Under the pieces are notes generated by a model. It had not been told where the DNA came from. It did not search any database and saw only the letters and a program-made list of their open reading frames with translations. From positions 1 to 41,829 of the IMG/VR virus record IMGVR_UViG_3300049489_000109: a DNA stretch of 41,829 bases. The stretch is one strand, 5' to 3'. The DNA comes from a virus. Every line of letters starts with the position of its first letter. The stretch's first letter is position 1. The position numbers and the translations under genes were made by a program. Positions 4,405 to 23,055 of this stretch are shown in pieces.

Positions 4405-4412
4405 CAAATATA
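4405..4412 (-). promoter_or_regulatory. -7 box of the reverse-strand gene and RNA
   Basis: The reverse strand reads TATATTTG, an exact TAnnTTTG match, 25 nt upstream of the start codon at 4380. A TTTG lies 15 nt farther upstream and an ATTG 22 nt upstream as -33 candidates. It is back to back with the late-type element at 4466-4494. Confidence 0.65.
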
Positions 4413-4460
4413 CATATTTATTTGTAACAAACGGCAATAAATATAAATATTGACGAAAGT

Positions 4461-4494
4461 TACATTTGCACAAAATACCCTCTATTGGTACTTA
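4461..4494 (+). promoter_or_regulatory. Putative late promoter of the second virion unit
   Basis: TTGCACA at 4466-4472 and TACTTA at 4489-4494 are 16 nt apart. GTG at 4500 follows after 5 nt, matching the geometry at 203-236. TACATTTG (4461-4468) is also an exact -7 match, without a clear -33. In that reading the mRNA would begin with the hairpin TACC-N7-GGTA (4477-4490). Confidence 0.55.
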
Positions 4495-4499
4495 ATTAT

Positions 4500-4916: not shown

Positions 4917-6819
4917 AGATAGATCAAATACACCCTTACTAATTAAATTCGAGGAGCATAAAGTTCCTGAATTTAAAGAAGAAAAGAATAAAGAGTGGAT
5001 CACTTATGGGGTAGATGCTAAGTGGAGAAATCGCTACCCTAACTATTTATTAGACCTTTACAACAAGTCTGTTAAGCACAACGCTATCATTACCTCAAAA
5101 GCTAATTACATAGCTGGAAATGGCTTTGAAATCATTGGTAAACCATCTTTAGAAGATAAGTCTTTTGCAGAAGAAATGCTTAGGCAATCTGTTAACAAGT
5201 ATGGTGAGGGATATGGTGATATTGGATATAAATGTGCTTTAGATATTGAAGTTTTCGGTGGTTGTTACTTAGAAATCATTTGGGATAAGAAGGGAAAGGA
5301 CTTTGAGGTTTATCATATGAACTATTGTGATTTAAGAATAAGTAAAGATGAGTCAAGTTACTTATGGTCGAATGATTGGAGTAAGGGAACTCAATCCGCT
5401 GAAGCTACTGGGTTAAAAGAAATTCCTTTATTCGATCCTGAGAATCCGAAAGGCTCACAGATTTATGCTTATAAAGAATATAGACCTAACGTAAAGTATT
5501 ATCCACTTCCTGGATATGTAGGTGCTATTATGTGGTGTGAGATAGATCACTTCATTGCTAATTACCATCATTCAGATTTATCTACTGGCTTTATGGCTGG
5601 AACAATGATAAATTTTGCCAATGGTAAACCGACTAATGAAGAAAGATTAGAGATTGAAAGAAAGATTAAAGATAAGTTTACTGGAACAGATAAAGCGGGT
5701 TCTATTCTATTGACATTTAGTCAGAATAAAGATAACGCCCCTACTATCCAAAGAATAGCAGATGGTAAGATGCACGATAGTGTAATTACCTTAAATAAAG
5801 AGTCTGTAATAAGCGAATTAATCATTGGTCATAGAATTAACTCAGGGACTATCTTCGGAGTTCCACAGCCTTCTGGATTAGGCTCTGAGCGTAGTCAAAT
5901 GATGACTGCTTATGAGTTGTTTAAGAATACTTATTGTGAACCAAAGCAAAGATCGTTGAATATTTACTTTAATGTTCTTTTAAAAGCAAAAGGATTAAAC
6001 GTTAAGGTTAAATTAAAAGAGTCACCTCCTTTGGGTGCTAATTTCTCTGAGTCTATCTTAAAAGAGATTATGACAAAGAATGAATTAAGGGGATTGATGG
6101 GATTAGAGAAGATTGAGGGGTATGACACTCCACAACCTGAGCCTGAAAAGATTGTTTCTTCTGCAATTCATCATTTTGCGAATTGCGAACACAGTCACCA
6201 ATTCACAGAAGAAGAATTAGAAAAAACATTACAAGTATTTAAGAAGTATGGTAGACCTGCTTACAACTTCCATCGTGAAATGATACTGTCATATAAGTTT
6301 AAGACGGTTGAACTTGACGAGGATATGAAGGAAATTTATAGAAGGGTTTTAGACATGATTGATAAAGAACCTTTCATTACTAATGAGCAAATCGCTGAAT
6401 TAACAAATAGAGAAGTTTCAAATATAGAAAAGTTAATAGAAAGACTAGAAGAGTCAGGAGCTATTCAAACAAAAGTTAAGAAGTCTTATGGTGACAAGGT
6501 AGAGCGAAGGGTAATTAGCGAAGAGGCTAGCGTAATTATAGACTCTAATCCACCAAAGAAAGCGGATTGGCAAATCATGTATTCTTATCAATGGAGACCA
6601 GGTATTACACCTAATGAATCTACCTCAAGAGACTTTTGTAGAGCCTTGCTAAGAGCTAATCGTTTATACTCAAAGAAAGATATTAATCAGATAAGTGATG
6701 AGCTAGGATATGACGTATGGAGTAGAAGAGGTGGTTGGTGGAATCACGGAGGGACTACCGATGTAACTACTCCGTATTGCCGTCATATTTGGGCTGCCGA
6801 ATACGTTAAAGAAAAATAA
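4906..6819 (+). CDS. Portal protein with C-terminal extension
   Basis: Residues ~1-410 resemble siphophage portal proteins: NAIITSKANYIAGNGFEI near the N-terminus, a long clip/stem-like region, then RINSGTIFGVPQPSGLGSERSQMMTAY and ..CEPKQRSLNIYFN.., typical of portals forming the dodecameric DNA channel. At 637 residues it is longer than usual. The extra ~220 residues include a winged-helix-like segment (EQIAELTNREVSNIEKLIERLEESGAI) and a C-terminal block (GGWWNHGG.., TTPYCRHIW) similar in flavour to minor head protein endings. A portal-minor head fusion is therefore likely. It overlaps the preceding gene by 11 nt and ends 2 nt before the connector gene. Confidence 0.8.
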   Translation: MESKDRSNTPLLIKFEEHKVPEFKEEKNKEWITYGVDAKWRNRYPNYLLDLYNKSVKHNAIITSKANYIAGNGFEIIGKPSLEDKSFAEEMLRQSVNKYGEGYGDIGYKCALDIEVFGGCYLEIIWDKKGKDFEVYHMNYCDLRISKDESSYLWSNDWSKGTQSAEATGLKEIPLFDPENPKGSQIYAYKEYRPNVKYYPLPGYVGAIMWCEIDHFIANYHHSDLSTGFMAGTMINFANGKPTNEERLEIERKIKDKFTGTDKAGSILLTFSQNKDNAPTIQRIADGKMHDSVITLNKESVISELIIGHRINSGTIFGVPQPSGLGSERSQMMTAYELFKNTYCEPKQRSLNIYFNVLLKAKGLNVKVKLKESPPLGANFSESILKEIMTKNELRGLMGLEKIEGYDTPQPEPEKIVSSAIHHFANCEHSHQFTEEELEKTLQVFKKYGRPAYNFHREMILSYKFKTVELDEDMKEIYRRVLDMIDKEPFITNEQIAELTNREVSNIEKLIERLEESGAIQTKVKKSYGDKVERRVISEEASVIIDSNPPKKADWQIMYSYQWRPGITPNESTSRDFCRALLRANRLYSKKDINQISDELGYDVWSRRGGWWNHGGTTDVTTPYCRHIWAAEYVKEK

Positions 6820-8120: not shown

Positions 8121-9262
8121 TGGCATTAACGATTAATTTAGGATTAACAGCGGATGCAACAGGAACGGTAGATGTTATAACGGCTACTTATAGCCCTGCA
8201 CCGACTTTAGTTGATAATAAAGTACTATTCTTACAAACCACAGGTACAAATACAGGTGCTGTTACGTTTAATCCTAACGGTGTTGGCGCAAAGGCGGTGG
8301 TAATTGAGGGTGTTGCTTTGACTGCTGGTCAAATGCCTAAGTTTGCTATCTTAGCTTATGACCTAGCTAATACTAGATGGGAGTTACTTAACCCTATTTC
8401 GGGCGCAGGTGGCGGTGAAACGTTAGCGCAGACTTTAGCTTTAGGAAATTCAACAGATGCTTACGATATTGTTATTACAAATGGGCAGAAGGTTAAGAGC
8501 TCAACGGCGAATAAATCTTTTTTACAATTTTTAAATGGAAACGAAGTTGTTTTGGAGACAGATGGCGGTAGCTACACTAAAGCGTATTTATACTTAAGTC
8601 AATCACAAGCGGAGTTAACTGCGCTAGGATATGGTGTCGTAGCAAACGCTTCTTACATAAGATTGCAACACAACTCATTGGTGAGGCTTGATGCACCAAG
8701 TGTTGAGGTGACGCAACAGACAGCTTCTAGAATCTTAAGTACAGACGCTAGTAAGAATATTACAGCACTAGACACGGCTACTTATCCAAGTTTAACCGAG
8801 TTAAGTTACATTAAAGGATTAACTAGTGCTATACAGACTCAGTTAAACGCAAAGGTTTATACGTTAATTGGTGGTTGCAGTAACTCTTCACCAGCAGACT
8901 CAACTACTTACTACATCGGTGGACACCCCGCAACTACTATACTAACTTCAGCAGCTAATACAGTTGCGTTAGCCGTTCCAGTTTCGGGTACTATTATATC
9001 TTCAGTAGTTTATATGGTAGGTGCGAACGGCACAAATGAGAATACAACATTTGAGGTTCGGGTAAACGATACAACTTCAGCTACTATAACAAGTGCGGCT
9101 AGTTTAGCAGCGATAGCAAGTACAGGCGCAATTGCATCAAATTATGCAATGAGTCAAGCTGTAACAGCTGGTGATTGGTTGCATTTAAGAATGATATGTC
9201 CTGCATGGGCTACAAATCCAACAGGGGTTAGAATTTGGTTTTCAATAGCAATTAGATCATGA
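8120..9262 (+). CDS. Putative tail fibre or receptor-binding protein
   Basis: A 380-residue Thr/Ala/Gly-rich protein with many short beta-strand repeats and no membrane segment. The first ~95 residues resemble fibre-attachment domains (TYSPAPTLVDNKVLFLQTTG), the middle contains a SRILSTDASKNITALDTATYP segment, and the last ~130 residues look like a compact C-terminal beta domain suited to ligand binding. It is the last long virion gene before the lysis genes. It could contribute to adsorption, but no catalytic or binding motif is identifiable. Confidence 0.5.
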   Translation: MALTINLGLTADATGTVDVITATYSPAPTLVDNKVLFLQTTGTNTGAVTFNPNGVGAKAVVIEGVALTAGQMPKFAILAYDLANTRWELLNPISGAGGGETLAQTLALGNSTDAYDIVITNGQKVKSSTANKSFLQFLNGNEVVLETDGGSYTKAYLYLSQSQAELTALGYGVVANASYIRLQHNSLVRLDAPSVEVTQQTASRILSTDASKNITALDTATYPSLTELSYIKGLTSAIQTQLNAKVYTLIGGCSNSSPADSTTYYIGGHPATTILTSAANTVALAVPVSGTIISSVVYMVGANGTNENTTFEVRVNDTTSATITSAASLAAIASTGAIASNYAMSQAVTAGDWLHLRMICPAWATNPTGVRIWFSIAIRS

Positions 9263-9471
9263 TAACATACGAATATAAATTACAGGGAAACGGGAAGGAC
9301 TCGTGGACAGCAACGGAAACAAATGATATTGGCGAGGTGATCGCTAAATATATGGTTTACGAAGACCCGAATAAAATCAAGAAAATTGATTTAAAAGATA
9401 TTGATATTGACACGATGAGTCAATCTGAATTAGAGAAACTAGCTAATAAATTAAAACCTTTATTAAAATAA
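9259..9471 (+). CDS. Small hypothetical protein after the fibre gene
   Basis: A 70-residue protein with an N-terminal beta segment (YEYKLQGNGKDSWTATETNDIGEVI) and an acidic C-terminal helix. It overlaps the fibre gene stop (ATGA). Small proteins here are often fibre-assembly factors, but nothing in this sequence shows that. Confidence 0.55.
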   Translation: MITYEYKLQGNGKDSWTATETNDIGEVIAKYMVYEDPNKIKKIDLKDIDIDTMSQSELEKLANKLKPLLK

Positions 9472-9475
9472 ATTT

Positions 9476-9700
9476 ATGACACCAACGGAAACAAATTTTA
9501 TTATATGGGTATTAATGGCACTCATAGGGGTATTAGCTTACATAGGTAAATTAGGTGTAGGGTATCTATCTAAGATTGCTAGTAGTGTAAATAAGATGGA
9601 GAAGGACTTGAGTGTGTTGACGAATGACCATAGTAATTTAAAGGAAGATGTTAAGGACATAGATGTTCGTGTAACTATTCTTGAAAACAAAAAGAAATGA
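9476..9700 (+). CDS. Small membrane protein, holin- or XhlA-like
   Basis: The 74-residue protein has one transmembrane helix near residues 8-33 (FIIWVLMALIGVLAYIGKL), then a coiled coil (NKMEKDLSVLTNDHSNLKEDVKDIDVRVTIL). This XhlA-like build is common beside endolysins. It starts 4 nt after the previous gene and overlaps the endolysin candidate by 4 nt. It may help recruit or release the endolysin. Confidence 0.6.
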   Translation: MTPTETNFIIWVLMALIGVLAYIGKLGVGYLSKIASSVNKMEKDLSVLTNDHSNLKEDVKDIDVRVTILENKKK

Positions 9701-10242
9701 AGCAATATTCTATTCCAGAGTTAAAAAAAGAATTTACCAGACTAGGATATACTTGGTTTAACTTCCAATTTATAGGTATTAGATCAAAGGCTAATTTACC
9801 TAACCAATTCGATGACCTATTTGGTGTGGTTGATGGGGATAGGGTTACATGGTATTCATGTACTACAAATCCAGGAACTCATTGGCTTAAGAACCTTTTA
9901 AATAAAAACGGAACTGCTTTATTAAAACCAAATCAATACGTTAATACTTGGAAGTTAGGATTACATCAAGGTAAATACGAGGCTTTTGTTCAATGTAAGC
10001 CAGTAACTGTTTATAGAGACGCTGATATGGATGAGGTTGCTGAAGAAACTATTAAAACTGAAACTGGTATGTTTGGAATAAATATTCATAGGGCAAATGA
10101 AACGGTTATTTCTAAAATCATTGATAAATGGTCGGCTGGGTGTCAGGTTTTAAATAACCCTGCTGACTTTAAATGGATTAAAGAACTTGCTAAATCGAAA
10201 AAACAACCTGAATTTACTTATACGTTGTTAAGAGAATTTTAA
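9697..10242 (+). CDS. Putative endolysin
   Basis: This 181-residue soluble protein lacks a signal peptide and lies between two small membrane proteins, as expected for a holin-dependent endolysin. GMFGINIHRANE followed by KWSAGCQVL resembles the paired His and Ser-x-Gly-Cys motifs of L,D-transpeptidase/carboxypeptidase-type peptidoglycan enzymes; the likely nucleophile is the Cys near residue 150. An N-terminal block (WYSCTTNPGTHWLKN) is shared by such phage proteins as I remember them. The substrate bond is unknown. Confidence 0.6.
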   Translation: MKQYSIPELKKEFTRLGYTWFNFQFIGIRSKANLPNQFDDLFGVVDGDRVTWYSCTTNPGTHWLKNLLNKNGTALLKPNQYVNTWKLGLHQGKYEAFVQCKPVTVYRDADMDEVAEETIKTETGMFGINIHRANETVISKIIDKWSAGCQVLNNPADFKWIKELAKSKKQPEFTYTLLREF

Positions 10243-11961: not shown

Positions 11962-12717
11962 TTAAAATGTTATTAATTTCTTAAATCGCTCCAATCCGTA
12001 AGCATTTGTCTTTTCTAAAATAGGTAATAACTCAATTGCCTTTATTCCTTTATCAAGAATCTTTGTTCTTTCTTTTTCAGAGAAGTTTTTACCCATCCAG
12101 TCAGCAACGCCTAGCTTACAAGAGCCTGTTATAATTCGATAATAAGGAACGGTAATGATAGTGTCTTTTGTTATAGGATATTTCTTTAACTTCTCTGACA
12201 TCACTTTGAACTTAAAATCTTCTTTAGCTTCCTTTAAAGTGTCTCCGTGTGAATGGGTGAATTTTCCATCGGTTACTAAGTAAAACTCTTTTAATGAGTT
12301 TAGTTTTTTAACTACATAAATATTTCCTTTTTTACTTACTATTTTTGTGAATATTCCATCTATTAAAATGTATTTTTCTTCCCATTTTACTATGTTAGTT
12401 TCTAGCTTTCTTTGTTTTACGTTTGATCCGTCAGTCACCGATCTCAAATACAAATCTCCACCAACGGTAGGATTAAAGTTCTCAGGTAAGGAAGTCACCG
12501 ATCTCAAATACAAATCTCCACCAACGGTAGGATTAAAGTTCTCAGGTAAGGAAGTCACCGAACTCAAATACAAATAACCACCAACGGTAGGATTGAAATT
12601 CTCAGGCAAGGAGGTCACCGATCCCAAATACAAAGAATCACCGATGTGTTCTTCTCCTGAAAATTGTTTTTCGGTAATTCCGTGTTTTTCGCAAAAATCT
12701 TTTTTTTCTTTTTTCAT
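11962..12717 (-). CDS. Repeat protein with 20-residue LPENFNPTVGG units
   Basis: This 251-residue protein has three to four tandem 20-residue repeats (core SVTSLPENFNPTVGGDLYL) at residues ~30-95, a leucine-rich-repeat-like solenoid known in phage and bacteroidal proteins of unclear role. Residues ~105-250 form a separate alpha/beta domain (EEKYILIDGIFTKIVSKKGNIYVVKKL; TDGKFTHSHGDTLKEAKEDFKFKV; ITGSCKLGVADWMG). It is the first gene of the leftward operon, with a -7 box 16 nt upstream. The almost identical DNA repeats suggest recent duplication, so repeat number may vary between isolates. Confidence 0.75.
   Translation of the reverse strand: MKKEKKDFCEKHGITEKQFSGEEHIGDSLYLGSVTSLPENFNPTVGGYLYLSSVTSLPENFNPTVGGDLYLRSVTSLPENFNPTVGGDLYLRSVTDGSNVKQRKLETNIVKWEEKYILIDGIFTKIVSKKGNIYVVKKLNSLKEFYLVTDGKFTHSHGDTLKEAKEDFKFKVMSEKLKKYPITKDTIITVPYYRIITGSCKLGVADWMGKNFSEKERTKILDKGIKAIELLPILEKTNAYGLERFKKLITF
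12433..12640. repeat. 60-bp tandem repeats within the repeat-protein gene
   Basis: About 3.5 units in exact 60-bp register; the two units ending at 12480 and 12540 are almost identical and the outer ones diverge. The unit length is a multiple of three, so gain or loss keeps the reading frame. Confidence 0.9.
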
Positions 12718-13111: not shown

Positions 13112-13434
13112 TTGATCTATTCTCTCACAATTACGAGTCAGCTCACTACAACACTACGTTGTTAAAGGGTGTTGAGTTAAAGAGGTGTATCGCAAAGGCA
13201 GAAGATCAAAACGATGATATTCTTAGATACTTCAAGGCTAATCCAAATATTTTATTTTCAGCGTGTGATATTTACAAGGCTATGGGAGAAAGGTATCTGT
13301 TAACCTCAGTAAGAAGGGCGATCACTACTCTTTACAATAACGTGTTGCTAGAAAAAACAAACCAACAAAAAATAGGAATGTACGGAAAGCCCGTATTTCT
13401 TTATACGCTAAAAATGGACTCATGGAAAAAATAA
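13108..13434 (+). CDS. Putative winged-helix protein
   Basis: 108 residues from the ATG at 13108, which overlaps the previous stop as ATGA; an in-frame GTG lies 6 nt upstream. Residues ~40-100 (DDILRYFKANPNILFSACDIYKAM, LLTSVRRAITTLYNNVLLEKT, YGKPVFLYTL) have helix-helix-wing spacing typical of a winged-helix DNA-binding domain. It may be an early transcription or replication regulator. Confidence 0.55.
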   Translation: MIDLFSHNYESAHYNTTLLKGVELKRCIAKAEDQNDDILRYFKANPNILFSACDIYKAMGERYLLTSVRRAITTLYNNVLLEKTNQQKIGMYGKPVFLYTLKMDSWKK

Positions 13435-13640
13435 CTAGAATAGGATTTCTACTTTGTATCTGCACCCTAATATTAGGAGGCGGACAATACTTAAAAATGA
13501 AGGAATACTACCATGAAAGGGAGGTAAAAAGAACCATACAGTTCAAGGTCGATTCGATACGATTTGACTCAATAATCAAAGATCGTACTTTTTACATTCC
13601 AGAGTACACTGGTAAGATAACTAAAATGGATGTTGAATAA
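13422..13640 (+). CDS. Small membrane-anchored protein before the cassette array
   Basis: 72 residues with one N-terminal hydrophobic helix (IGFLLCICTLILGGGQYL) then a basic, repetitive segment (FKVDSIRFDSIIKDRTFYI). It overlaps the preceding gene by 13 nt. Its stop codon is part of the first attC-like site (AATAAC), so it marks the left boundary of the array. Confidence 0.5.
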   Translation: MEKITRIGFLLCICTLILGGGQYLKMKEYYHEREVKRTIQFKVDSIRFDSIIKDRTFYIPEYTGKITKMDVE

Positions 13641-13769
13641 CGGACAGGTATAGCCAAAGGCGGTGGAATAGAAACTGCATCCCTATCGAACCGCTAAACA
13701 TTTATAAGATGCAGAAAGCTATCAAGCGAAAACACGCCCCCCCGCTTGTGGCTATATAGTGTTATAGGG
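13633..13769 (+). repeat. attC-like site 1
   Basis: Left box TTGAATAAC (13633-13641) and right box GTTATAGGG (13761-13769), with inner arms near 13649-13663 and 13742-13756 (TATAGCC...GGCTATA). The left box has no matching cassette start upstream, so this may be the anchoring site. Confidence 0.7.
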
Positions 13770-13786
13770 CGTTTATTCTTACAAAA

Positions 13787-14062
13787 ATGATAACAAAACA
13801 GGAATATATAAATGCTCTTGAAATAGTTGAAGAATATCACGAGCAGTTAAAAAAGCAAATAGTAAATCACGAGCCAAAGTTAAATGATATAGGATTAAAG
13901 AGAGGGGATTATGTTATTTACAATGGAGGCCTTGAAAGCCAATATTTGACTAAAAATAAGCAATACCGATTAACTGGAGAACCATATAGAAATAGGATTT
14001 GCATAATTAATGATAAAGGTTGTAGAATGAATTGTAAGCAGTCCTTTTTTAATGCCCTATAA
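13787..14062 (+). CDS. Cassette 1: small SH3-like protein, unknown
   Basis: 91 residues: an N-terminal helix (QEYINALEIVEEYHEQLKKQIV) and a beta-rich half (GLKRGDYVIYNGG, YLTKNKQYRLTG, CIINDKGCRMNCKQSFF) that looks like an SH3-type barrel seen in phage accessory proteins. Its TAA stop is embedded in the left box of the next attC (GCCCTATAAC), a frequent economy in cassettes. The function is unknown. Confidence 0.65.
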   Translation: MITKQEYINALEIVEEYHEQLKKQIVNHEPKLNDIGLKRGDYVIYNGGLESQYLTKNKQYRLTGEPYRNRICIINDKGCRMNCKQSFFNAL

Positions 14063-14208
14063 CGTTTTGCGTGTATAAGAAGTGGCGGGATTAAAGCACA
14101 AAATTAACTTGAAAGTAATGCAGTTGAATATAGCACAAATGCTTGTTACAGCACAAAAGTACCATAGTAGTAATTCAGCCCCCATTTTGGCAAACACCTG
14201 TTAGTGGC
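14054..14208 (+). repeat. attC-like site 2
   Basis: Boxes GCCCTATAAC (14054-14063) and GTTAGTGGC (14200-14208), with TTTTGC/GCAAA inner arms. The loop contains GCACAAATGC at 14135, the motif shared with other sites. Confidence 0.8.
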
Positions 14209-14257
14209 TGGGCTGGGTTTCAAGGAACGATTTTTAAACAATTAAAATACAAAAAAA

Positions 14258-14533
14258 ATGAAAAAAACAATTTGGAAATTTGAATTAGAGGTTACGGACA
14301 AACAATTTATCCGTATGCCAAAAGAAGCTGAATTACTTTCAGTTCAAACGCAAAACGAAACACCTTGCTTATGGGCATTAGTGAACCCAAATAACCCAAC
14401 AGAAGAAAGGTGCTTTGAAGTATTTGGAACTGGGCATCCTGTTCATTGTGATATGGGTATTGATAGAAAATATACTGGTACGTTTCAATTGCAAGGAGGT
14501 GGTTTAGTCTTTCACTTGTTTGAACGTCTGTAA
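14258..14533 (+). CDS. Cassette 2: DUF7352-like protein
   Basis: 91 residues matching the small family I know as DUF7352: WKFELEVTDKQFIRMPKEAELLSVQTQNETPCLWALVNP at the N-terminus and a beta strand end (YTGTFQLQGGGLVFHLFE). It is common on phages and mobile elements, with unknown function. It has its own A-rich leader and start inside the cassette. Confidence 0.75.
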   Translation: MKKTIWKFELEVTDKQFIRMPKEAELLSVQTQNETPCLWALVNPNNPTEERCFEVFGTGHPVHCDMGIDRKYTGTFQLQGGGLVFHLFERL

Positions 14534-14538
14534 GCCTT

Positions 14539-14673
14539 GCCACTAACGTTAAACGGCTTTGCGATGGTGGGGTTTCAATGCACAAATGTTCAACCCACAA
14601 CTAATGTTAATTTAAAGCACAAAATATGAATTTACCACAAATGCCCCACTATTGCAAAACAGATGTTGTGTGC
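14539..14673 (+). repeat. attC-like site 3, overlapping the helicase gene start
   Basis: Boxes GCCACTAAC (14539-14547) and GTTGTGTGC (14665-14673), with arms GGCTTTGCGATGGTGGGG and CCCCACTATTGCAAAAC. The start of the next gene (14626) lies inside the site. A nine-codon ORF from the loop ATG at 14586 stops 10 nt before that start. Confidence 0.8.
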
Positions 14674-16854
14674 AGTACGAGTAGTTACTTGGATTTTCTC
14701 CAAACGAAACAAAAAACACATATCCTATCTGGATTTGATGTTGATGAAAAACAATTAAACAATAATATGTTTGACTTTCAAAAGTTCATTGTAAAACGAG
14801 CTTTAAAAGCTGGTAAGTATGCAATTTTTGCCGATTGTGGATTAGGTAAAACTTTGATGCAATTAGAATGGTCAAATCAAGTATGTAAAGAAACTAACAG
14901 CAAAGTTTTAATACTTGCACCATTGGCTGTTGTCGGTCAAACAATACAAGAAGGGATAAAATTTGGAATTGATATGGCAAGTATAGATGTTCAAAATTAT
15001 GAGCAACTTGATAATATTGATTGTTCGATTTATAGTGGTGTGGTACTTGATGAAAGCAGTATTTTGAAGAACTTTGAGGGTGCTACCAAAAAACAAATAA
15101 TTGATAATTTTATTAATACACCATACAAGTTAGCTTGTACTGCAACCCCATCACCAAACGACCCTATGGAATTGGGTAATCATAGCGAATTTTTAGACGT
15201 TATGAGCCGAAATGAAATGTTAGCAATGTATTTTGTTCACGATGGAGGTGAAACGGCTAAATGGAGGTTAAAAGGACACGCTGTAAAGATGTTTTATCAG
15301 TTTGTAGGCAGTTGGGCTATAATGCTAAATAAACCTATGGATATTGGTTTTGAAATGATAGGATATGATTTACCAAAATTGAACTTATTAGAAAATCAAA
15401 TTAAAACTACCAAACGAGATAATGGAAGTTTATTTAATGATGCAATTATTTCAGCAACAAATTTCAATGCAGAGTTAAGACTAACTAAAATTGAAAGACT
15501 TGATGAAGTAGTTAAATTAGTAAATGACAAACCCGATGAAAATTTTATTATTTGGATTAAGCAAAACGAAGAAGGCGAAATGCTTAAAAAATTAATTCCT
15601 GATGCTGTTGAAGTAAAAGGTAGTGATAGTAATGAATGGAAAAAAGATAAATTATTAGGATTTGCAAATAATGAATTTAGAGTACTGATAACCAAAACCA
15701 AAATAGCAAGTTTTGGAATGAATTATCAAAATTGTAGAAATCAAATTTTTGCAAGTTTAGATTTTTCTTTTGAAGGATTGTATCAAGCTATTCGCAGAAG
15801 TTACAGATTTGGACAAAAAAACGAAGTAAACATTTATTTAATAACAACCGATACAATGGCTAATGTAAAACAAGCTATTGACAATAAACAAAAACAATTT
15901 GAAATTATGCAAGACGAAATGGCAAAAGCAATTAATTTAAACTTAGCTGGACAAATTATGCAAGTAGGCGAATTTGATACCACCGAAGAAAACAATGAAT
16001 GGTACTCAATACAAAGAGGGGATTGTGTGCAATTAATTCAAAACGTAAAAGACGAAAGTATTGGATTGAGTGTATTTAGCCCTCCATTTGCAGAACTATA
16101 CACATATTCAAACCACTTGGAGGATATGGGTAATTCAAAAGACTACAATGAGTTTTTACACCAATTTAGTTTTTTAATTAAAGAATTATATCGAGTAATG
16201 ATGTCAGGTAGAAATGTTGCAATTCATTGTATGGATTTGCCTGTTCAAAAAGGTAAACACGGATATATTGGATTAAGGGATTTTAGCGGATTACTTTTAA
16301 AGGCTTTTGAAGATGCTGGATTTGTTTATGCAAGTAGGGTTACAATTTGGAAAGACCCTGTAATTGAAATGCAAAGGACTAAAGCATTGGGATTACTTCA
16401 TAAGCAAGTGAAAAAGGATAGCACTATGAGTCGTGTTGGTATTCCTGATTATGTTATGATTTTTAGAAAAGATGGAGAAAGGAATAACCCTGTAACCAAT
16501 ACAGATTTAAGTGTTGATTTGTGGCAAAAATACGCTTCACCAGTATGGATGGATATTAACTACTCAAATACACTACAAGGATTTAGAAATGGCAGAGAAG
16601 AAAATGACGAAAAACATATTTGCCCTTTACAACTTGATACCATTGAAAGATTGATACACTTATACTCAAACAAAGGTGATACTGTTTTAACTCCATTTAT
16701 GGGTATTGGTAGCGAAGTCTATCAAGCTGTTAAAATGGGTCGAAAAGGAATAGGTTTTGAGTTAAAAGAAAGTTATTTTGATTTAGCTAAGGCAAATTTA
16801 AAAGCAGCCGTTTCTCAAAAGAACCAAATCGGATTATTTGATGCAGTTCAGTAG
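14626..16854 (+). CDS. Cassette 3: SF2 helicase-DNA methyltransferase fusion
   Basis: A 742-residue fusion. Residues ~50-440 are an SNF2/DEAD-like SF2 helicase: Q-type start with FDFQKFIVKRAL, Walker A DCGLGKT (70-76), Walker B LDES (141-144), motif III CTATP (171-175), and motif VI QAIRRSYRFGQ (387-397). Residues ~455-742 are an N4-cytosine/N6-adenine methyltransferase of permuted order: catalytic SPPF (485-488), then the SAM-binding TPFMGIGS near residue 700 and a final FELKESYFDLAKANL. No nuclease domain is visible, so it may be a modifying or protective enzyme, not a complete restriction system. The first 13 codons are encoded by the attC site, so the start codon came with the neighbouring cassette; an in-frame GTG at 14668 is an alternative. 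Confidence 0.85.
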   Translation: MNLPQMPHYCKTDVVCSTSSYLDFLQTKQKTHILSGFDVDEKQLNNNMFDFQKFIVKRALKAGKYAIFADCGLGKTLMQLEWSNQVCKETNSKVLILAPLAVVGQTIQEGIKFGIDMASIDVQNYEQLDNIDCSIYSGVVLDESSILKNFEGATKKQIIDNFINTPYKLACTATPSPNDPMELGNHSEFLDVMSRNEMLAMYFVHDGGETAKWRLKGHAVKMFYQFVGSWAIMLNKPMDIGFEMIGYDLPKLNLLENQIKTTKRDNGSLFNDAIISATNFNAELRLTKIERLDEVVKLVNDKPDENFIIWIKQNEEGEMLKKLIPDAVEVKGSDSNEWKKDKLLGFANNEFRVLITKTKIASFGMNYQNCRNQIFASLDFSFEGLYQAIRRSYRFGQKNEVNIYLITTDTMANVKQAIDNKQKQFEIMQDEMAKAINLNLAGQIMQVGEFDTTEENNEWYSIQRGDCVQLIQNVKDESIGLSVFSPPFAELYTYSNHLEDMGNSKDYNEFLHQFSFLIKELYRVMMSGRNVAIHCMDLPVQKGKHGYIGLRDFSGLLLKAFEDAGFVYASRVTIWKDPVIEMQRTKALGLLHKQVKKDSTMSRVGIPDYVMIFRKDGERNNPVTNTDLSVDLWQKYASPVWMDINYSNTLQGFRNGREENDEKHICPLQLDTIERLIHLYSNKGDTVLTPFMGIGSEVYQAVKMGRKGIGFELKESYFDLAKANLKAAVSQKNQIGLFDAVQ

Positions 16855-16858
16855 TATT

Positions 16859-16995
16859 GCACACAACGGCTGACAATAACCGTCAGGTGGGGGGTTAAAT
16901 GCACCGAACCTTCACATTGACACTAAACTAAATTAGGAGCAGATAACTTCAAGCTGGCAACCAGCCCCCACTTGCGGTTATTGTATGTTATGGGC
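16859..16995 (+). repeat. attC-like site 4
   Basis: Boxes GCACACAAC (16859-16867) and GTTATGGGC (16987-16995). Long arms: GACAATAACCG..GGTGGGGG and CCCCCACTTGCGGTTATTG. Confidence 0.8.
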
Positions 16996-17018
16996 TGGCG
17001 TTTTTAAATCACAAAATT

Positions 17019-17240
17019 ATGTACGAAGAAAAATTAATGGCTAAACAGCCGACAACTCAACCAGAACATTTGTCAATTGCACAACAGTTTTCAAATGAAA
17101 TGATGGACAGATTTAACCCCGAACAGGTAAATGAAATTCTGCACCACATTAAACAAATGTTCAAAGAGCGTAGGGAAATAGAAATTGCAGAAGCACAAAA
17201 TAAACTTGCTTATCTGCAAAATACCATAGAAGCTCTGTAA
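17019..17240 (+). CDS. Cassette 4: small helical protein, unknown
   Basis: 73 residues, mostly one or two long helices (QFSNEMMDRFNPEQVNEILHHIKQMF, then EIAEAQNKLAYLQNTIEAL, a coiled-coil-like end). An in-frame ATG at 17037 (MAKQPTTQPE) is a plausible alternative start. No known family. Confidence 0.6.
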   Translation: MYEEKLMAKQPTTQPEHLSIAQQFSNEMMDRFNPEQVNEILHHIKQMFKERREIEIAEAQNKLAYLQNTIEAL

Positions 17241-17272
17241 TTGTAATGGGTGAGCGTGGGTTTCTTACGCTT

Positions 17273-17361
17273 GCCCATAACGGTGAGGGTATGAGAAGGG
17301 AATTTTTACCATTAAAAAATAGACAAGAAAAAATTACTTTTTTATACCCTATGTTACCAGC
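17273..17361 (+). repeat. attC-like site 5
   Basis: Boxes GCCCATAAC (17273-17281) and GTTACCAGC (17353-17361), with GGGTAT/ATACCC arms. At 89 bp it is shorter than sites 2-4. Confidence 0.75.
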
Positions 17362-17421
17362 AGTAGCTTCCACTGAACTCAATTTGAAACACAAGAAAAA
17401 ATTAAAATAAAATTTAGAGCG

Positions 17422-17886
17422 ATGGCAAATATTTTACCCGTAATAACATTATACCAGCCGTGGGCAACTTGGATAATGAGAGAATGGAAAACCATAGAAA
17501 CAAGAACGCATAACCGTTTTGCATCTTTAATTCACAGAAAAGTTTTGATACACGCAGGGCAAAGAACGGATGATAGCGACCTGACCGTGAAAAATCCATA
17601 CCTGACCAAAGAGCAAATATGTTTCAACCCCGATGAAGTAATTAACGGAGCAATATTAGGGAGCGTTTATGTAGATGCGTGTGGATGGCTTTGCGGAGAT
17701 GATTACGAAAACAAAAGTGCGTTGATTGAAACTACAAACAGGTATGGATTATTTCTTAAAGATGCAAAACGGTTTGACGAACCATTATATGTGAAAGGTG
17801 AAATGGGGATATGGTATTACGATTTGGATGCAAAACAGAAAGTTAAAAAACCAATTACAAATGCGGGGCAGGAAATTTTATTTTAA
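17422..17886 (+). CDS. Cassette 5: ASCH-domain protein
   Basis: 154 residues with the ASCH pattern: ITLYQPWATWIMREWKTIETRTHN (residues ~8-31), IHRKVLIHAGQR, VINGAILGSVYVDAC and a final VKGEMGIWYYDL. ASCH domains adopt a PUA-like fold and often bind RNA or modified nucleotides; some are RNases or amidohydrolases. The exact substrate here is unknown. Confidence 0.75.
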   Translation: MANILPVITLYQPWATWIMREWKTIETRTHNRFASLIHRKVLIHAGQRTDDSDLTVKNPYLTKEQICFNPDEVINGAILGSVYVDACGWLCGDDYENKSALIETTNRYGLFLKDAKRFDEPLYVKGEMGIWYYDLDAKQKVKKPITNAGQEILF

Positions 17887-17935
17887 TTTTTTCTCCTCAA
17901 TATCTGCACTACCCTTGCTACGAAGCTAGGCTATT

Positions 17936-18073
17936 GCTGGTAACGGTTTCGGGCTAAACGATAGTGGCGGATTTCGGAGCGATACACTTTCAATTTAGCA
18001 CTCGCTTTATTAGATGCACAAATGCTTGATTTACCACTTAACCCGCCATTTCGTTTTAGCCCGTGTTATGCGA
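17936..18073 (+). repeat. attC-like site 6
   Basis: Boxes GCTGGTAAC (17936-17944) and GTTATGCGA (18065-18073). Arms TTTCGGGCTAAACGATAGTGG and CCGCCATTTCGTTTTAGCCC. The 346-base gene-free stretch 17887-18232 holds this site, the loop motif GCACAAATGC (18016), a 67-codon ORF from its ATG (18022-18225) ending 7 nt before the next gene, and the promoter at 18160-18190. Confidence 0.8.
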
Positions 18074-18159
18074 TGCCGCCTTCCACTAAGCTACCCACGA
18101 AGCACAAAGCCTTTTTTCTTAAAACTTTTTTAGGGGAGGTTTTTTATTTTTCTTTTTTC

Positions 18160-18190
18160 TTGTGTATATCAAATACACTATGTATATTTG
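18160..18190 (+). promoter_or_regulatory. Internal promoter of cassette 6
   Basis: TTG at 18160-18162 and TATATTTG at 18183-18190 are 20 nt apart, an excellent Bacteroidota promoter. The spacer holds the inverted repeat GTGTAT-N5-ATACAC (18162-18178), a possible operator. This cassette does not depend on an upstream array promoter. Confidence 0.7.
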
Positions 18191-18232
18191 CGAACGAAAT
18201 AATTTTTAAACAAACAATTAAATAAAATCAAA

Positions 18233-19276
18233 ATGGAAGTAACAGAAACAACATCAGAACTGGTGCGACTTGTAGAAACAAGTGGGCTGGAAAAAACAAA
18301 GCAAAATCAAATTGCCGAAACGCTGGGCGTATTCTTTAACAAAGCAGCCGAATGGGATGCCACAATACAAAGCATTGTGATTACAAGCCCCGAAGAAACG
18401 GGCAAAATGAAAATGGCAAAGGAAGGAAGATTGACTTTAAAGAATATGCGACTGGAAGCCGAAAAGATTGTGAAAGCAAAAAGAGATGAAGTAAAGTATG
18501 CAATGGCAAACTTTGTTTTGGAAGATAAACTTTGGCTGAAAGCAGGTCAAATGATGGAAGCAACTTTTAAGAACCTTGAAACAAAATTAGAGGAGAAAGA
18601 AAAATTTGCTGAAAGATGGCAAGCCGAACAAAAAGAAAAATTGAAAACTGAAAGATTGGCGTTGCTTTTACCGCTTGGGTTTCAATTTGAAAATGGTTTT
18701 GATTTAGGGAATATGGATGAAAAAATGTTTCAATCTTTGAAACTCGGATTGGAAACTGCAAAGAAAGAAAAGGAAGATGCTGAACGCAAAGCAGAGGAAG
18801 AAAGGATTGCAAAAGAAAAAGCGGAAGCCGAAGAAAGAGCAAGGATAAAAGCTGAAAACGAAAAGTTGAAATTAGAAGCAGAGGCGAAAGAAAAACAACT
18901 GGCTGATGAAAGAGCCAAAGCCGAAGCGGAACGCAAAGCAATGGAAGCGAAAGCAGCCAAATTAAAAGCCGAAGCGGATGCCAAACTGAAAGCTGAAAAA
19001 GAAGCAAACGAAAAGTTACAAGCGGAAATAAGAGCCAAAGCCGAAGCGGAAGAAAAAGCAAAAAAGGATGCTGAAATAAAAGCATCAGCAGAATTGAAAG
19101 CGAAACAACAAGCCGAAGAGAAAGCAGCCAAAGCACCTATAAAGCAACAATTAACCACTTGGGTTGATAGCTTTTCGCTTGGTAAGCCGATAAGCCAAAA
19201 TGAAACAACTATTGAAATAGAAGAAAAATTTGAGGCATTTAGAAAGTGGGCTAAATCAAAAATTGAAGCACTATGA
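18233..19276 (+). CDS. Cassette 6a: long coiled-coil protein
   Basis: 347 residues. Residues 1-130 are a helical domain (ETSGLEKTKQNQIAETLGVFFNKAAEWDATI; a typical RLTLKNMRLEAEKIVKAKRDEVK). Residues ~135-300 form an unbroken Lys/Glu/Ala coiled coil (KAEAERKAMEAKAAKLKAEADAK), and residues ~305-347 a short C-terminal domain (TWVDSFSLGKPI). The N-terminal half resembles phage proteins annotated with unknown domains; I cannot assign a function. It overlaps the next gene (ATGA) and has its own promoter. Confidence 0.7.
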   Translation: MEVTETTSELVRLVETSGLEKTKQNQIAETLGVFFNKAAEWDATIQSIVITSPEETGKMKMAKEGRLTLKNMRLEAEKIVKAKRDEVKYAMANFVLEDKLWLKAGQMMEATFKNLETKLEEKEKFAERWQAEQKEKLKTERLALLLPLGFQFENGFDLGNMDEKMFQSLKLGLETAKKEKEDAERKAEEERIAKEKAEAEERARIKAENEKLKLEAEAKEKQLADERAKAEAERKAMEAKAAKLKAEADAKLKAEKEANEKLQAEIRAKAEAEEKAKKDAEIKASAELKAKQQAEEKAAKAPIKQQLTTWVDSFSLGKPISQNETTIEIEEKFEAFRKWAKSKIEAL

Positions 19277-19455
19277 GAAAGAACCTTGATATAAGCGAAG
19301 AAGCGGTAGAAGCATTGACTATTCAAGCAATAAAAGAGAAAACCGTTTTCAAATTGAAGGCGGAACAAATACTGGAAGATGCTGCAAAACCTTTTATTGT
19401 TTTGAAAAAACAAAAGAGCGTGGGCAAAAAAAGTTTTAAGAAAAAAGATGGTTAA
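19273..19455 (+). CDS. Cassette 6b: small basic protein
   Basis: 60 residues, helical N-terminus (DISEEAVEALTIQAIKEKTVFKLKAEQIL) and Lys-rich tail ending KKSFKKKDG. It overlaps the coiled-coil gene by 4 nt, so they are co-translated and likely work together. The size and charge fit a ribbon or accessory DNA-binding factor; not recognised. Confidence 0.6.
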   Translation: MRKNLDISEEAVEALTIQAIKEKTVFKLKAEQILEDAAKPFIVLKKQKSVGKKSFKKKDG

Positions 19456-19486
19456 GTACTACTCTTTCTACGAAGCACTGGCGGTT

Positions 19487-19624
19487 TCGCATAACGTATC
19501 GGGGCTTAAAGAAGTAGGGGGATTTAACAGATAAAATTTAATATGAAAAACAGAATTTCAACATACCACAAATGTTCATTAGAAGTAGGAAGCCCCCTAT
19601 TTCTTTTAAGCCCTTGTTATGTGT
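19487..19624 (+). repeat. attC-like site 7
   Basis: Boxes TCGCATAAC (19487-19495) and GTTATGTGT (19616-19624). Arms GGGGCTTAAAGAAGTAGGGGG and CCCCCTATTTCTTTTAAGCCC. The loop holds ACAAATG with its ATG at 19572. Confidence 0.8.
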
Positions 19625-19688
19625 CTGTAAAATTTTTAATAATTATTTTTTGCGTGGGCTTTTAACTTTTAAACTAAATAACAAATGA
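19572..19688 (+). other. attC-born leader ORF coupled to cassette 7
   Basis: From the loop ATG of attC site 7 a 38-codon frame runs through the right box into the cassette and stops with TGA overlapping the next start as ATGA (19685-19688). The peptide has no conserved look, so its likely role is to deliver ribosomes to the cassette gene. Confidence 0.35.
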
Positions 19689-20170
19689 CAAATTACAGAA
19701 CGGTTGCAACCACCGAAAGATTGCCACAAGTAGCAAATGAAAACTACTTAACAATTTCCGAAAGAGGTATTGAAACATCAAGGTTCTTTAACGGAACAAG
19801 ATTTGAAACTGCACACTATGAAGGTGAGATTACCCACTGGTTAGAAAAGGTTGCAGACAATAACGATGTATCGGATGGCTACCATACTTTCAGAGAATTG
19901 TATGAACACCGAATTACATTGTTTATTGCCCTTTGTAAAGAACTAAATAGAAACCCTGCATACCAAACATATAATGAAGTGTGGCGTATGCCTGTTGAAG
20001 ATGGATGGTTTTTGATGGGTATAAATACCGAAAAAGGGAAACAAATTACTTATCACTTGCCCGAAAGCAAATGGAATGAAACTGAATTTGCATCAAACCT
20101 ACATCCGCAATCTTATCAATTTGATGGACATAAAGGTTCTGATGTTTTGGAACGACTTAAAACTCTTTAA
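19685..20170 (+). CDS. Cassette 7: conserved phage-type protein, unknown
   Basis: 161 residues. Residues ~60-160 match a family I know from many phages: DGYHTFRELYEHRITLFIALCKE, a VWRMPVEDGWFLMGINTEKGKQITYHLPESKWN block and a final FDGHKGSDVLERL. The role is unknown, but it is usually with replication or recombination genes. The start overlaps the stop of the attC-born leader ORF. Confidence 0.7.
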   Translation: MTNYRTVATTERLPQVANENYLTISERGIETSRFFNGTRFETAHYEGEITHWLEKVADNNDVSDGYHTFRELYEHRITLFIALCKELNRNPAYQTYNEVWRMPVEDGWFLMGINTEKGKQITYHLPESKWNETEFASNLHPQSYQFDGHKGSDVLERLKTL

Positions 20171-20207
20171 CTGTGCGGTGGGAAAAATAATTATTAAAAA
20201 TTTTATT

Positions 20208-20422
20208 GCACATAACGTTTTGCAAATAACCGAATGTAAAAATTACGACTTATGGAATTAATAATATGTTTAACAATTGGAACAATGGGAACCTTTATAC
20301 ACTTTGCGTTGCAAGATATTGTTCGAGAATTAAAAAAGAAAAACGCTTTACTTGAAAAACAGAATGAGATTTTACAGAGAAAAACTGAGTAATTTTTATT
20401 TTGGTTATTTGCTGTTATAAGT
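20208..20422 (+). repeat. attC-like site 8, enlarged and containing a gene
   Basis: Boxes GCACATAAC (20208-20216) and GTTATAAGT (20414-20422). Arms TTTTGCAAATAACC (20218-20231) and GGTTATTTGC (20403-20412). At 215 bp it is the longest site because a 46-codon ORF fills its loop. Confidence 0.75.
20252..20392 (+). CDS. Small membrane or coiled-coil protein inside attC site 8
   Basis: 46 residues: hydrophobic N-terminus (LIICLTIGTMGTFIHFAL) followed by a charged helix (QDIVRELKKKNALLEKQNEILQRKTE). It resembles the small phage proteins that anchor a coiled coil to the membrane. It lies wholly within the loop of a palindrome, so it would travel as part of the recombination site. Confidence 0.5.
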   Translation: MELIICLTIGTMGTFIHFALQDIVRELKKKNALLEKQNEILQRKTE

Positions 20423-20578
20423 AAGCGAAGCGACCCGATAGGGTTACTTATAACGTGGTAGCGGCTTTGTGGCTGTTGCCGAAATAGAATTACATCACTT
20501 TAAAATTTATACAAATGTTGAACGAAGAACAAAAAGTTGAGCCGACTTCCGAAAACGGCAATAGCACAAAACCGCCTG
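20415..20578 (+). mobile_element. Gene-less mini-cassette (cassette 8)
   Basis: The 5' box TTATAAGTAA (20415-20424) and its complement TTACTTATAA (20444-20453) are only 19 nt apart. The unit then is essentially a 40-bp body plus an attC (site 9), with no room for an ORF of its own. Confidence 0.6.
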
Positions 20579-20586
20579 TTAGCCGC
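20446..20586 (+). repeat. attC-like site 9
   Basis: Boxes ACTTATAAC (20446-20454) and GTTAGCCGC (20578-20586). Arms GCGGCTTTGTGGCTGTTGCCG and CGGCAATAGCACAAAACCGC. The loop ACAAATG supplies the ATG (20515) of the next gene. Confidence 0.8.
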
Positions 20587-20742
20587 AGAGCATGGTTGTT
20601 TCAGGGAACAAATGAACGGAAGTTCCCGATTACAATTTATGTATCTGCTGTTGATAGAGAAAGTGCAATAGCCCATTTTGAAACCGATTACCCGCAGTAT
20701 AATTGGTTTGCAACCGTTGAGTGTCCGCTGCTTTGCGGCTAA
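20515..20742 (+). CDS. Cassette 9: small protein whose start codon lies in the attC
   Basis: 75 residues. The first ~22 (MLNEEQKVEPTSENGNST) are encoded by attC site 9, and the cassette proper begins at about the SRRAWLFQGTNE segment. Between the box and that segment no in-frame ATG or GTG is present, so this cassette needs a start from whatever attC precedes it. Its own TAA lies within the next left box. The body (FPITIYVSAVDRESAIAHFETDYPQYNW) is an alpha/beta fragment found in cassette proteins. Function unknown. Confidence 0.55.
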   Translation: MLNEEQKVEPTSENGNSTKPPVSRRAWLFQGTNERKFPITIYVSAVDRESAIAHFETDYPQYNWFATVECPLLCG

Positions 20743-20802
20743 CGATGGATGCCTTACGCATGTGCCCTTTTCGGGCATTGCGTTAAGGCATGTGTTAGCA
20801 AA
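20735..20802 (+). repeat. attC-like site 10
   Basis: Boxes GCGGCTAAC (20735-20743) and GTTAGCAAA (20794-20802). Arms GATGCCTTACGCATG and GCGTTAAGGCATG with a GCCC..GGGC tip. It is compact, 68 bp. Confidence 0.8.
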
Positions 20803-20879
20803 GTGCGTTGGGTTTTTGTGGGAAGCCCGTTGTATTTAATTAAAAAAACAAAAAAGGGAGGGTTTTAAAAACTATAATT

Positions 20880-21536
20880 ATGAATAAAGAAATTGCACTA
20901 AAAATATTGAACAGGTTTGTTGACCGAACACGGAACAATATGAACCAACCATTTAGCCAACAATTAAAAATTGGCAAATACCTATGCGCTACCGATGCGA
21001 GAATAGTAGTGCTGATACCTGAAACGGATGAAAATAAAATTGAAAATGAGGAAGGCTATAAACCACCAAACATAGACGGCATACTACCCGAATTTGAGCC
21101 GATGGATTTTGATTTTAAATACCTGAAAAAGCTGTATGACGATGTGCCGATTATAGAACGGTTTAGAATGCAGGAATGTGAGGCGTGTGATGGAGATGGA
21201 AAATTTGAGCATTACGGAGATTGGTATGAGTGCAAAAATTGTGATGAAATGGGAGAAGTGCAAACCAATTTTAAGGAGAAGGTAAAAAGCCCTGAAACAG
21301 CTTTTAAATTCAAAGATGTAAATATTGCAGTTGGTAAAATTGCAAGCCTGATGGAGATACAATTTGCACTTGGGAAAACCGAATTTGAATTTAAAATTAT
21401 GAAACTTAAAAGCTCAATAGTGTGGTTTAAACTGGATGAAATTTTAATCGGAATTGCAGGACTACACGATATTGAGGATGATAAAAAGAAATGGGAGTTT
21501 GTAAATGTTGAACTTAAAAACCTTTTACAAATTTGA
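20880..21536 (+). CDS. Cassette 10: unknown protein with Cys4 zinc ribbon
   Basis: 218 residues. Residues ~35-75 and ~150-215 look like two halves of a sliding-clamp-like or phage accessory fold (KIGKYLCATDARIVVLIPE; FKFKDVNIAVGKIASLMEIQ). The centre has a DnaJ-type zinc motif with C100, C103, C118 and C121. It starts after a GGAGGG-like purine tract, unusual in this phylum. A DNA-binding accessory role is conceivable but untested. Confidence 0.65.
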   Translation: MNKEIALKILNRFVDRTRNNMNQPFSQQLKIGKYLCATDARIVVLIPETDENKIENEEGYKPPNIDGILPEFEPMDFDFKYLKKLYDDVPIIERFRMQECEACDGDGKFEHYGDWYECKNCDEMGEVQTNFKEKVKSPETAFKFKDVNIAVGKIASLMEIQFALGKTEFEFKIMKLKSSIVWFKLDEILIGIAGLHDIEDDKKKWEFVNVELKNLLQI

Positions 21537-21582
21537 AAAATTTGCGGTGCGTTGGCTTTTGTTTTTTTAATTAAATACAATG

Positions 21583-21662
21583 TTTGCTAACGGTTACAGC
21601 TAATGGCTGGCGGCAATAAGCGGTTAGTATGTAGCCGCTTGACATTAGGTGCTGTTAGTGGT
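21583..21662 (+). repeat. attC-like site 11
   Basis: Boxes TTTGCTAAC (21583-21591) and GTTAGTGGT (21654-21662). Arms CAGCTAATGGCTGGCGG and CCGCTTGACATTAGGTGCTG. Length 80 bp. Confidence 0.8.
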
Positions 21663-21724
21663 GTGGGAAGGGATTTGAGCGTAGGCTCGTTGTTTAATTA
21701 ATAAAAATAAAAAAGGGAGGAAAT

Positions 21725-22135
21725 ATGAAAACTAAATTTAGAGCATTTGACAGATTTTACAAAATGATGATTTACGCAAATGATAAAGAGTTTGATTTTG
21801 TGTATGAGTTTTGGAAAGAGATGGAAAAATACCGAAAAGAAAATGATTGCGTATTTATGATGAATACTGGACTTAAAGATATTAATGGCAAAGATATTTG
21901 GGAAGGAGATATTTTGAAGGTGCATATTTTTACGCAAGAACTTGGAGAAAGCTTAGGCGTAAGAGAAGGCGAAAAAGAGTTTAAAGCGGAAATATGTTAC
22001 CAAGAAATGGGCTTATGGTTGCAAGGTAATACAGAAGATGAAAGCGGTTACATTTTATGGTTTAACGGAATGCACGAAGAAAGTTTTGAAGTGATTGGGA
22101 ATATTTACGAGAATAAGGAACTACTAAGTGCGTAG
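21725..22135 (+). CDS. Cassette 11: YopX-like protein (copy 2)
   Basis: 136 residues with the YopX signature: KFRAFDRFYKMM at the N-terminus, GLKDINGKDIWEGDILKV in the middle and FEVIGNIYENKELL at the end. It is the last cassette. The left box of its attC (ACCACTAAC, 22163-22171) is present but no matching right half follows, so the array is truncated or fused here. A purine-rich GGAGG precedes the ATG. Confidence 0.85.
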   Translation: MKTKFRAFDRFYKMMIYANDKEFDFVYEFWKEMEKYRKENDCVFMMNTGLKDINGKDIWEGDILKVHIFTQELGESLGVREGEKEFKAEICYQEMGLWLQGNTEDESGYILWFNGMHEESFEVIGNIYENKELLSA

Positions 22136-22221
22136 GCTTTTATTTTTATTAATTAAACAATGACCACTAACTACTATATATAAGTTTTGCTTATAAATAA
22201 CTAATATTTAATCAATTACAA

Positions 22222-23055
22222 ATGGATATTATAAAGTGGACAGATAAGTATTCTATTGATTGCAAACTAAGGTATAACAGTTTAGCTACTCAAAACAACT
22301 ACATAAGCCAGGTAAAAAGTTTTCTTTTTTATTTCAAAAACGAGATTGAACCTAAAACAATTTCAAATGACAAGATTAAGAATTGGTTACTAGAAGCAAA
22401 AACTATTAATACAAGAAAGCATAGATTGTGCGCTATAAATTCTTTTTATGAGTTAACTGTTGGTATGCCTAGTAAAATATCAAAAATTCCTTATCCTAAA
22501 TCTGAAAAGAAACTACCAATTGTTTTAAGTGTAGATGAAATTCAAAGAATGTTCGATGTATGTGAAAATAAAAAGCATAAGGTTATTATGGCTTTGCTTT
22601 ACTCTTGTTCGCTTCGTGTTTCAGAATTAATAAATTTGAAATGGAAACATATTGATAGATCGAGAATGATTATAAACATAATACAAGCGAAAGGAAAAAA
22701 AGATAGGCAAGTAGGGTTAAATGTTAAACTAATTTCTTTGCTTGAGGAATATTATAAAGAGTATAAACCAAAAGAATACGTTTTAAATGGTCAAACTTTA
22801 TTGCAATATTCTGAAACAAGCGTTAGCCAAGTTGTTAAGCAGTTAGCTAAAAAAGCAAACATAAATAATAAAAGAATTTATACACACTTAATGAGACACA
22901 CATCAGCCACCCACCTTGTCGAAAACGGTGTAGATATTAATTTAATACAAAAGCTATTAGGTCACAATAATGTAAAAACGACTAATTTGTATCTTCATAT
23001 TTCACATAATCATATTAGTAAAATTCAATCACCTTTGAGCTCAATAAATATGTAG
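22222..23055 (+). CDS. Tyrosine recombinase (XerC/D-like integrase)
   Basis: 277 residues. Residues ~1-85 are an N-terminal SAM-like DNA-binding domain (AT-NNYISQVKSFLFYF), residues ~100-270 the catalytic domain: R132 (SLRVSEL), K157 in the beta-hairpin (QAKGKKDRQV), H222-x-x-R225 (THLMRH), H248 (LLGHNN) and nucleophile Y257. All are present, so the enzyme should be active. It lacks the extra helix insertion that marks IntI integron integrases. It starts 50 nt after the last cassette, oriented with the cassettes. It could move cassettes, integrate the phage, or both. Confidence 0.9.
   Translation: MDIIKWTDKYSIDCKLRYNSLATQNNYISQVKSFLFYFKNEIEPKTISNDKIKNWLLEAKTINTRKHRLCAINSFYELTVGMPSKISKIPYPKSEKKLPIVLSVDEIQRMFDVCENKKHKVIMALLYSCSLRVSELINLKWKHIDRSRMIINIIQAKGKKDRQVGLNVKLISLLEEYYKEYKPKEYVLNGQTLLQYSETSVSQVVKQLAKKANINNKRIYTHLMRHTSATHLVENGVDINLIQKLLGHNNVKTTNLYLHISHNHISKIQSPLSSINM

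Follow-up and report, generated by a model that had tools for sequence, protein, structure and literature searches.

Can a row of small phage genes separated by palindromes constitute an integron, and if so, which recombinase would move its units? The window, meaning the whole 41,829-bp stretch of DNA analyzed, is a virus record with a G+C content of 34%, and a terminase and phage structural genes are present. Its array of units at 13.64 to 22.17 kb has small phage genes on the left and, on the right, a tyrosine recombinase with primase and replication genes beyond it. In our assessment, the window very probably holds a complete, self-sufficient phage-encoded integron with inverted cassettes, whose recombinase most likely has the neighboring attI and the attC sites as its substrates. 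Sequence alone shows the array with its unit boundaries and polarity, the attI, the clade of the integrase, and the rearrangement of cassettes in relatives. The features, in order of coordinates, are given below; "walk" denotes a hairpin-plus-box walk, "model" a covariance model of bacterial attC sites, and a slash the predicted crossover point.

13422..13640, plus strand: phage gene adjoining the array distally, whose stop codon shares bases with the boundary AAC (13639-13641); no family match.
13641..14062, plus strand: cassette unit 11, attC 13642-13760, ORF 13787-14062; walk; model match 13634-13768, minus strand, 38.1 bits.
14063..14546, plus strand: cassette unit 10, attC 14064-14199, ORF 14258-14533 (DUF7352); walk; model match 22 bits.
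14547..16866, plus strand: cassette unit 9, attC 14548-14664, ORF 14626-16854 (helicase and N6/N4 DNA methyltransferase), first ATG (14626) within the hairpin; walk; model match 59.5 bits.
16867..17280, plus strand: cassette unit 8, attC 16868-16986, ORF 17019-17240; walk; model match 53.1 bits.
17281..17943, plus strand: cassette unit 7, attC 17282-17352, ORF 17422-17886 (phrog_3193); walk; model match 34.6 bits.
17944..19494, plus strand: cassette unit 6, attC 17945-18064, ORFs 18233-19276 and 19273-19455; walk; model match 66.1 bits.
19495..20215, plus strand: cassette unit 5, attC 19496-19615, ORF 19685-20170 (WDGH domain); walk; model match 59.8 bits.
20216..20453, plus strand: cassette unit 4, long attC 20217-20413 whose loop holds a 46-aa ORF; walk, stem 36, box 11; no attC model match.
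20454..20742, plus strand: cassette unit 3, attC 20455-20577, ORF 20515-20742 starting within the hairpin; walk; model match 55.5 bits.
20743..21590, plus strand: cassette unit 2, short attC 20744-20793, ORF 20880-21536; walk; model match 20736-20801, 11.1 bits, E 0.59.
21591..22170, plus strand: cassette unit 1, adjoining attI, attC 21592-21653, ORF 21725-22135 (YopX); walk; model match 27.7 bits.
22163..22190, minus strand: attI-like site CCACTAA/CTACTATATATAAG; its core is common to the flanks of related integrases as TAACTAYTATATGTA.
22222..23055, plus strand: integron-type tyrosine recombinase lacking the I2/patch insertion specific to IntI; R132, K157, H222, R225, H248, and Y257 invariant in the family.

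The eleven attC-like hairpins and eleven cassettes of the preliminary description were all present. Every cassette begins with GTT and finishes with AAC, and its end boxes are self-complementary in all eleven cases, over 8 to 11 bp from the GTT/AAC core rather than the 7 to 10 bp first given (9 bp in the last cassette, GTTAGTGG/CCACTAAC). Such boxes were said to be hard to obtain by chance, and this held. The array reached a chain score of 45, compared with at most 13 in 40 shuffles and in four 8.6-kb stretches elsewhere in the window. The walk scored 78.6 on the window versus at most 4.0 in ten shuffles, and with a looser stem cutoff it recovered 11/11 sites (score, 91.6). An imperfect hairpin with R'' and R' boxes was found at each cassette.

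The covariance model was trained only on 22 attC sites of Bacteroidota chromosomal integrons. It matched 10 of the 11 window sites, with coordinates agreeing and every match on the minus strand (66 to 11 bits), and no better match than the array sites was found elsewhere in the window; the failure to fold as attC that had been named as a possible refutation was therefore not observed. The weakest accepted match (20736-20801, E 0.59) is near background, and the missed site (20216-20414) is the one with an ORF in its loop. Applied to 17 loci of related phages, the model yielded some 78 sites, and in the negative control, 361 kb of related terminase-bearing phages, it gave one match (E 0.0085). 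An Rfam scan returned chance matches only and no attC family, and a megablast search of the array against named phages gave no match. Near the ends of four cassettes (17394-17894, 19628-20205, 20830-21580, and 21687-22163), AT-rich inverted repeats of 22 to 26 bp lie beyond the R boxes and would extend the attC stem in the circular form.

The cargo of the window cassettes is phage typical, with helicase-methyltransferase, YopX, WDGH, and DUF7352 proteins; in other arrays, the products include C5 and N6/N4 DNA methyltransferases along with a PAPS-reductase-like and a radical SAM protein. Elsewhere in the window, a minus-strand gene at 11962-12717 contains three near-perfect 60-bp tandem repeats (12436-12640) encoding a leucine-rich-like repeat (SVTSLPENFNPTVGGDLYLR), and several glycosyltransferase-like genes, judged by eye, are clustered at 29988-36347 in the late phage genome.

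The array had been placed between early and replication genes, which was incomplete, since the next gene, at 22222-23055, encodes a tyrosine recombinase (Pfam PF00589). Likewise, an integron-like cassette array at 13633-22171 was supported, but its right end at 22171 is an attI-like site and not a degenerate attC. The recombinase was closest to the XerA, XerD, and IntI models, with no cutoff passed (158 bits against TIGR02249, for which the cutoff is 265 bits). All six residues of the catalytic R-K-H-R-H-Y set were invariant in 20 sequences. The insertion of ~40 residues that carries the I2 helix in IntI is missing: the alignment has a gap at model positions 179-238, the interval from KGxKDR to HxxRH is 65 to 71 aa versus 111 to 112 in two IntI proteins, and the predicted structure (mean pLDDT, 83.5) has no extra helix at the position of the IntI patch. 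Thus, the IntI-specific patch that marks the IntI family is absent, and the I2 helix is said to be necessary for IntI function (PMC7790495). The best structural matches were the Vibrio integron integrase (2a3v) and XerA. Beside the integrase lies an attI with a TAACTAYTATATGTA-type core at a fixed distance. From attI and the distal phage gene, the empty site of the window is predicted to read GGATGTTGAATAA/CTACTATATATAAG, with attI joined to the stop codon that ends the last phage gene.

Searches of viral contigs yielded 37 loci encoding relatives of this integrase, some of them near-copies, and a few more were found through the attI motif. Where flanks were available, most family members had an attI-like TAACTAYTATATGTA 51 to 68 nt ahead of the start codon, with 1 to 12 cassettes arrayed directly upstream of the integrase. 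Only one or no cassette was detected in L004, L008, L098, L099, L108, L112, L114, and L119, in some because of a contig end or truncated start. A similar array lies 55 nt upstream of the integrase in Polaribacter phage Leef_1, and no convincing array was seen in Ingeline (L248). A scan of viral contigs for the attI 16-mer gave 51 stretches, most of which lacked the integrase; by itself, the motif is therefore not diagnostic. In the tree, 25 related phage integrases and four from metagenome-assembled genome (MAG) contigs formed one clade (100/100). This clade was nearest the patchless integrases of Bacteroidota, with weak support for deep placement; IntI sequences stood separately, and no grouping with them was found. 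Identity to the window integrase was ~71% in two related loci (L009 and L010) and ~30% in the Freya phages. No relative above 60% identity was found in named phages or plasmids, nor was a near-identical sister of the window.

Each hairpin goes with the ORF to its right and not with the one to its left. A first reading of polarity, with attC at the ORF 3' end and the integrase distal, was ruled out by the L009/L010 junctions, the spacer asymmetry, and the model strand. The breakpoints between L009 and L010 lie inside TAAC, and the hairpin moves with the ORF on its right, which places the crossover at AA/C on the plus strand and attC before the ORF. In attC-first polarity, a spacer of 1 to 2 nt follows AAC and one of 5 nt precedes GTT, as in Bacteroidota integrons. 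Matches to the bacterial attC model lie on the strand opposite the ORFs in phages but on the ORF strand in bacteria. Judged from the cassette junctions, the spacer asymmetry, and the model strand, the phage cassettes are inverted, with attC upstream of the ORF and the ORFs toward attI. Across 19 phage arrays, 91 ORFs faced attI and 2 faced away (some cassettes are common to L009 and L010), compared with 44/44 facing away in nine integrons with IntI or Bacteroidota integrases. The canonical cassette, with its ORF directed away from attI and attC at the 3' end, was thus not what these phages contained. The first ATG of the longest ORF lay within the hairpin in 37 of 98 units, mostly 40 to 66 nt before GTT.

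Comparison of relatives bore out the suggestion that cassettes are shuffled: exact units were gained, lost, and reordered, and cassette content, whose uniformity had been proposed as a counterindication, varied among relatives. L009 and L010 share four cassettes (281, 306, 326, and 334 bp) that show 100% identity across the exact unit but stand in a different order, and each arrangement recurs in contigs with other IMG identifiers. The ten Polaribacter phages Freya_1-10, from 2018 enrichments and with genomes of 44.0 to 48.9 kb, were described with no mention of integrons (Bartlau et al., PMC8776804). Because the walk with relaxed thresholds gave a long chain with an unreliable distal part in these phages, only attI-proximal units and separate junctions were used. 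From the left anchor to the integrase, the Freya genomes that were compared differed by whole cassettes at AAC boundaries. In Freya_9, one 307-bp cassette beside attI is missing, and in Freya_5, everything past the first 1.78 kb is missing. Freya_6 matches Freya_5 except for an added new cassette of ~470 bp beside attI. An internal 902 bp is absent from Freya_8, two genes remain in Freya_2, and Freya_1 is empty. Cassette mobility is supported by these sequence comparisons.

The circular records of Freya_1, Freya_2, and Freya_8 (L250/L252, L254/L253, and L260/L259) start at a cassette junction or no more than 4 nt from one; a possible reason is that mixed arrays in the lysates broke the assembly. 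In L110, units 1 and 5 (8839-9877 and 4411-6542) carry the same small-gene pair twice in one array at ~90% DNA identity, which suggests cassette duplication or repeated capture.

Among other explanations, the one that survives best is a dual role for the integrase in prophage integration and cassette shuffling. XerA/XerD-like tyrosine recombinases can serve several sites, and four close relatives lie in bacterial MAG contigs; however, no attP/attB or prophage boundary was seen, and those contigs may be binned phage contigs, so we regard this role as improbable. Still less likely is a CALIN, in which cassettes captured from host integrons are moved by the host integrase and the neighboring recombinase merely serves lysogeny. 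Phage CALINs without integrase are known, IntI1 recombines phage attC sites (PMC9892861), and the Freya integrase was taken as a sign of a temperate lifestyle (PMC8776804). Against this, the array is no attC cluster without an integrase, the integrase clade is accompanied by attI and arrays at the fixed spacing of 51 to 68 nt, and sister-phage homology begins exactly at the attI AAC. The ORF polarity is also opposite to that of host cassettes, so wholesale capture from host arrays fails to explain the content. A host integrase may also work in trans on the phage array.

It is very unlikely that the array differences reflect homologous recombination or misassembly instead of site-specific recombination. 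L003-L017 are metagenome contigs, and the Freya_1, 2, and 8 junctions coincide with the record join and thus depend on declared circularity. Yet the junctions always fall within the TAAC/AAC core between unrelated flanks, those of Freya_5, 6, and 9 lie inside contiguous sequence of cultured isolates, and the metagenomic orders recur under other identifiers. Nor is the window array host sequence misassembled into a phage, as its flanks are phage genes and such arrays recur beside the same integrase in many viral contigs. That the hairpins are terminators or processing signals between operon genes, with incidental box complementarity, is scarcely conceivable: they are intergenic and attC sites are regarded as weak terminators, but box identity far above shuffles, attC model matches, and exact cassette indels already contradict it.

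In the preferred reading of a phage-encoded integron, the recombinase would cut the plus strand at AA/C (the other strand at G/TT), and cassettes would be excised, inserted beside attI, and swapped in order; we infer both catalysis by the window integrase and a folded-strand substrate. With attC first in each cassette and every ORF directed to attI and the integrase, the ORFs could be read through by phage transcription from the left and not from an attI promoter. The presumed benefit would be that phages can swap accessory genes, those for DNA modification among them.

Bacterial chromosomal and class 1 integrons likewise have an integrase gene divergent from attI and the array, an attI beside it, attC sites with self-matching boxes, and exact single-cassette loss and gain with insertion beside attI. 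The phage system differs in ORFs that face attI, attC 5' of the ORF, and a patchless, phage-encoded integrase with phage-type genes. The literature describes cassettes oriented from the integron promoter; atypical Treponema integrons also depart from the usual gene orientation, but only intI is turned and the cassettes still run away from attI (PMC3607928). Other close systems are the Bacteroidota chromosomal integrons found in this analysis, L191, L192, L196, L198, L201, L172, and L181. Their six full-length integrases are patchless and nearest in the tree (the partial one of L181, also without the patch, was left out of it), their attC model finds the phage sites, and the spacer asymmetry is common to both, whereas their ORF polarity is canonical and their integrases are 38 to 52% identical to that of the window in the best segment. 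The orientation of the integrase gene relative to the array is reversed in L196, L198, L201, L172, and L181.

As reported previously, CALINs and host-type integrons occur in phages, and IntI1 recombines phage attC sites (Qi et al., 2023, PMC9892861). The elements of Polaribacter phage P12002L and Shewanella phage M16-3 in that study are similarly attC-bounded phage cassettes, often with DNA methyltransferases, but the CALINs lack an integrase and the complete phage integrons have host-type IntI. In P12002L (L246), three attC matches of the published CALIN (30004-31318) are antisense to the local genes, and its cassettes also appear inverted. The preliminary description, sound in its array reading, had missed these reports along with the phage-encoded integrase, attI, and inverted polarity. 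Four points appear to be new: a phage-specific clade of integrases, inverted cassette polarity, the exchange of cassettes between sister phages, and the presence of patchless integrases beside attC arrays; no matching description of inverted-cassette or phage-encoded integrons was found in the open-access literature that our search covered.

These loci probably represent a distinct, phage-specific integron class of Bacteroidota phages, in which attC hairpins are recombined without the I2 helix, cassettes are wired backwards to join the phage operon, and a virus-to-virus gene pool is kept separate from the bacterial cassette pool. Because patchless integrases adjoin good attC arrays in both phages and bacteria, the I2-helix requirement for integron recombination is put in question. 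Searches demanding the IntI patch would be expected to overlook such elements or call them CALINs. Previously, stray integron cassettes were known in phages; here, a phage lineage would own the whole integron machine, in reversed polarity. This offers a mechanism for the rapid phage-to-phage exchange of accessory and DNA-modification genes, visible in cultured, testable phages.
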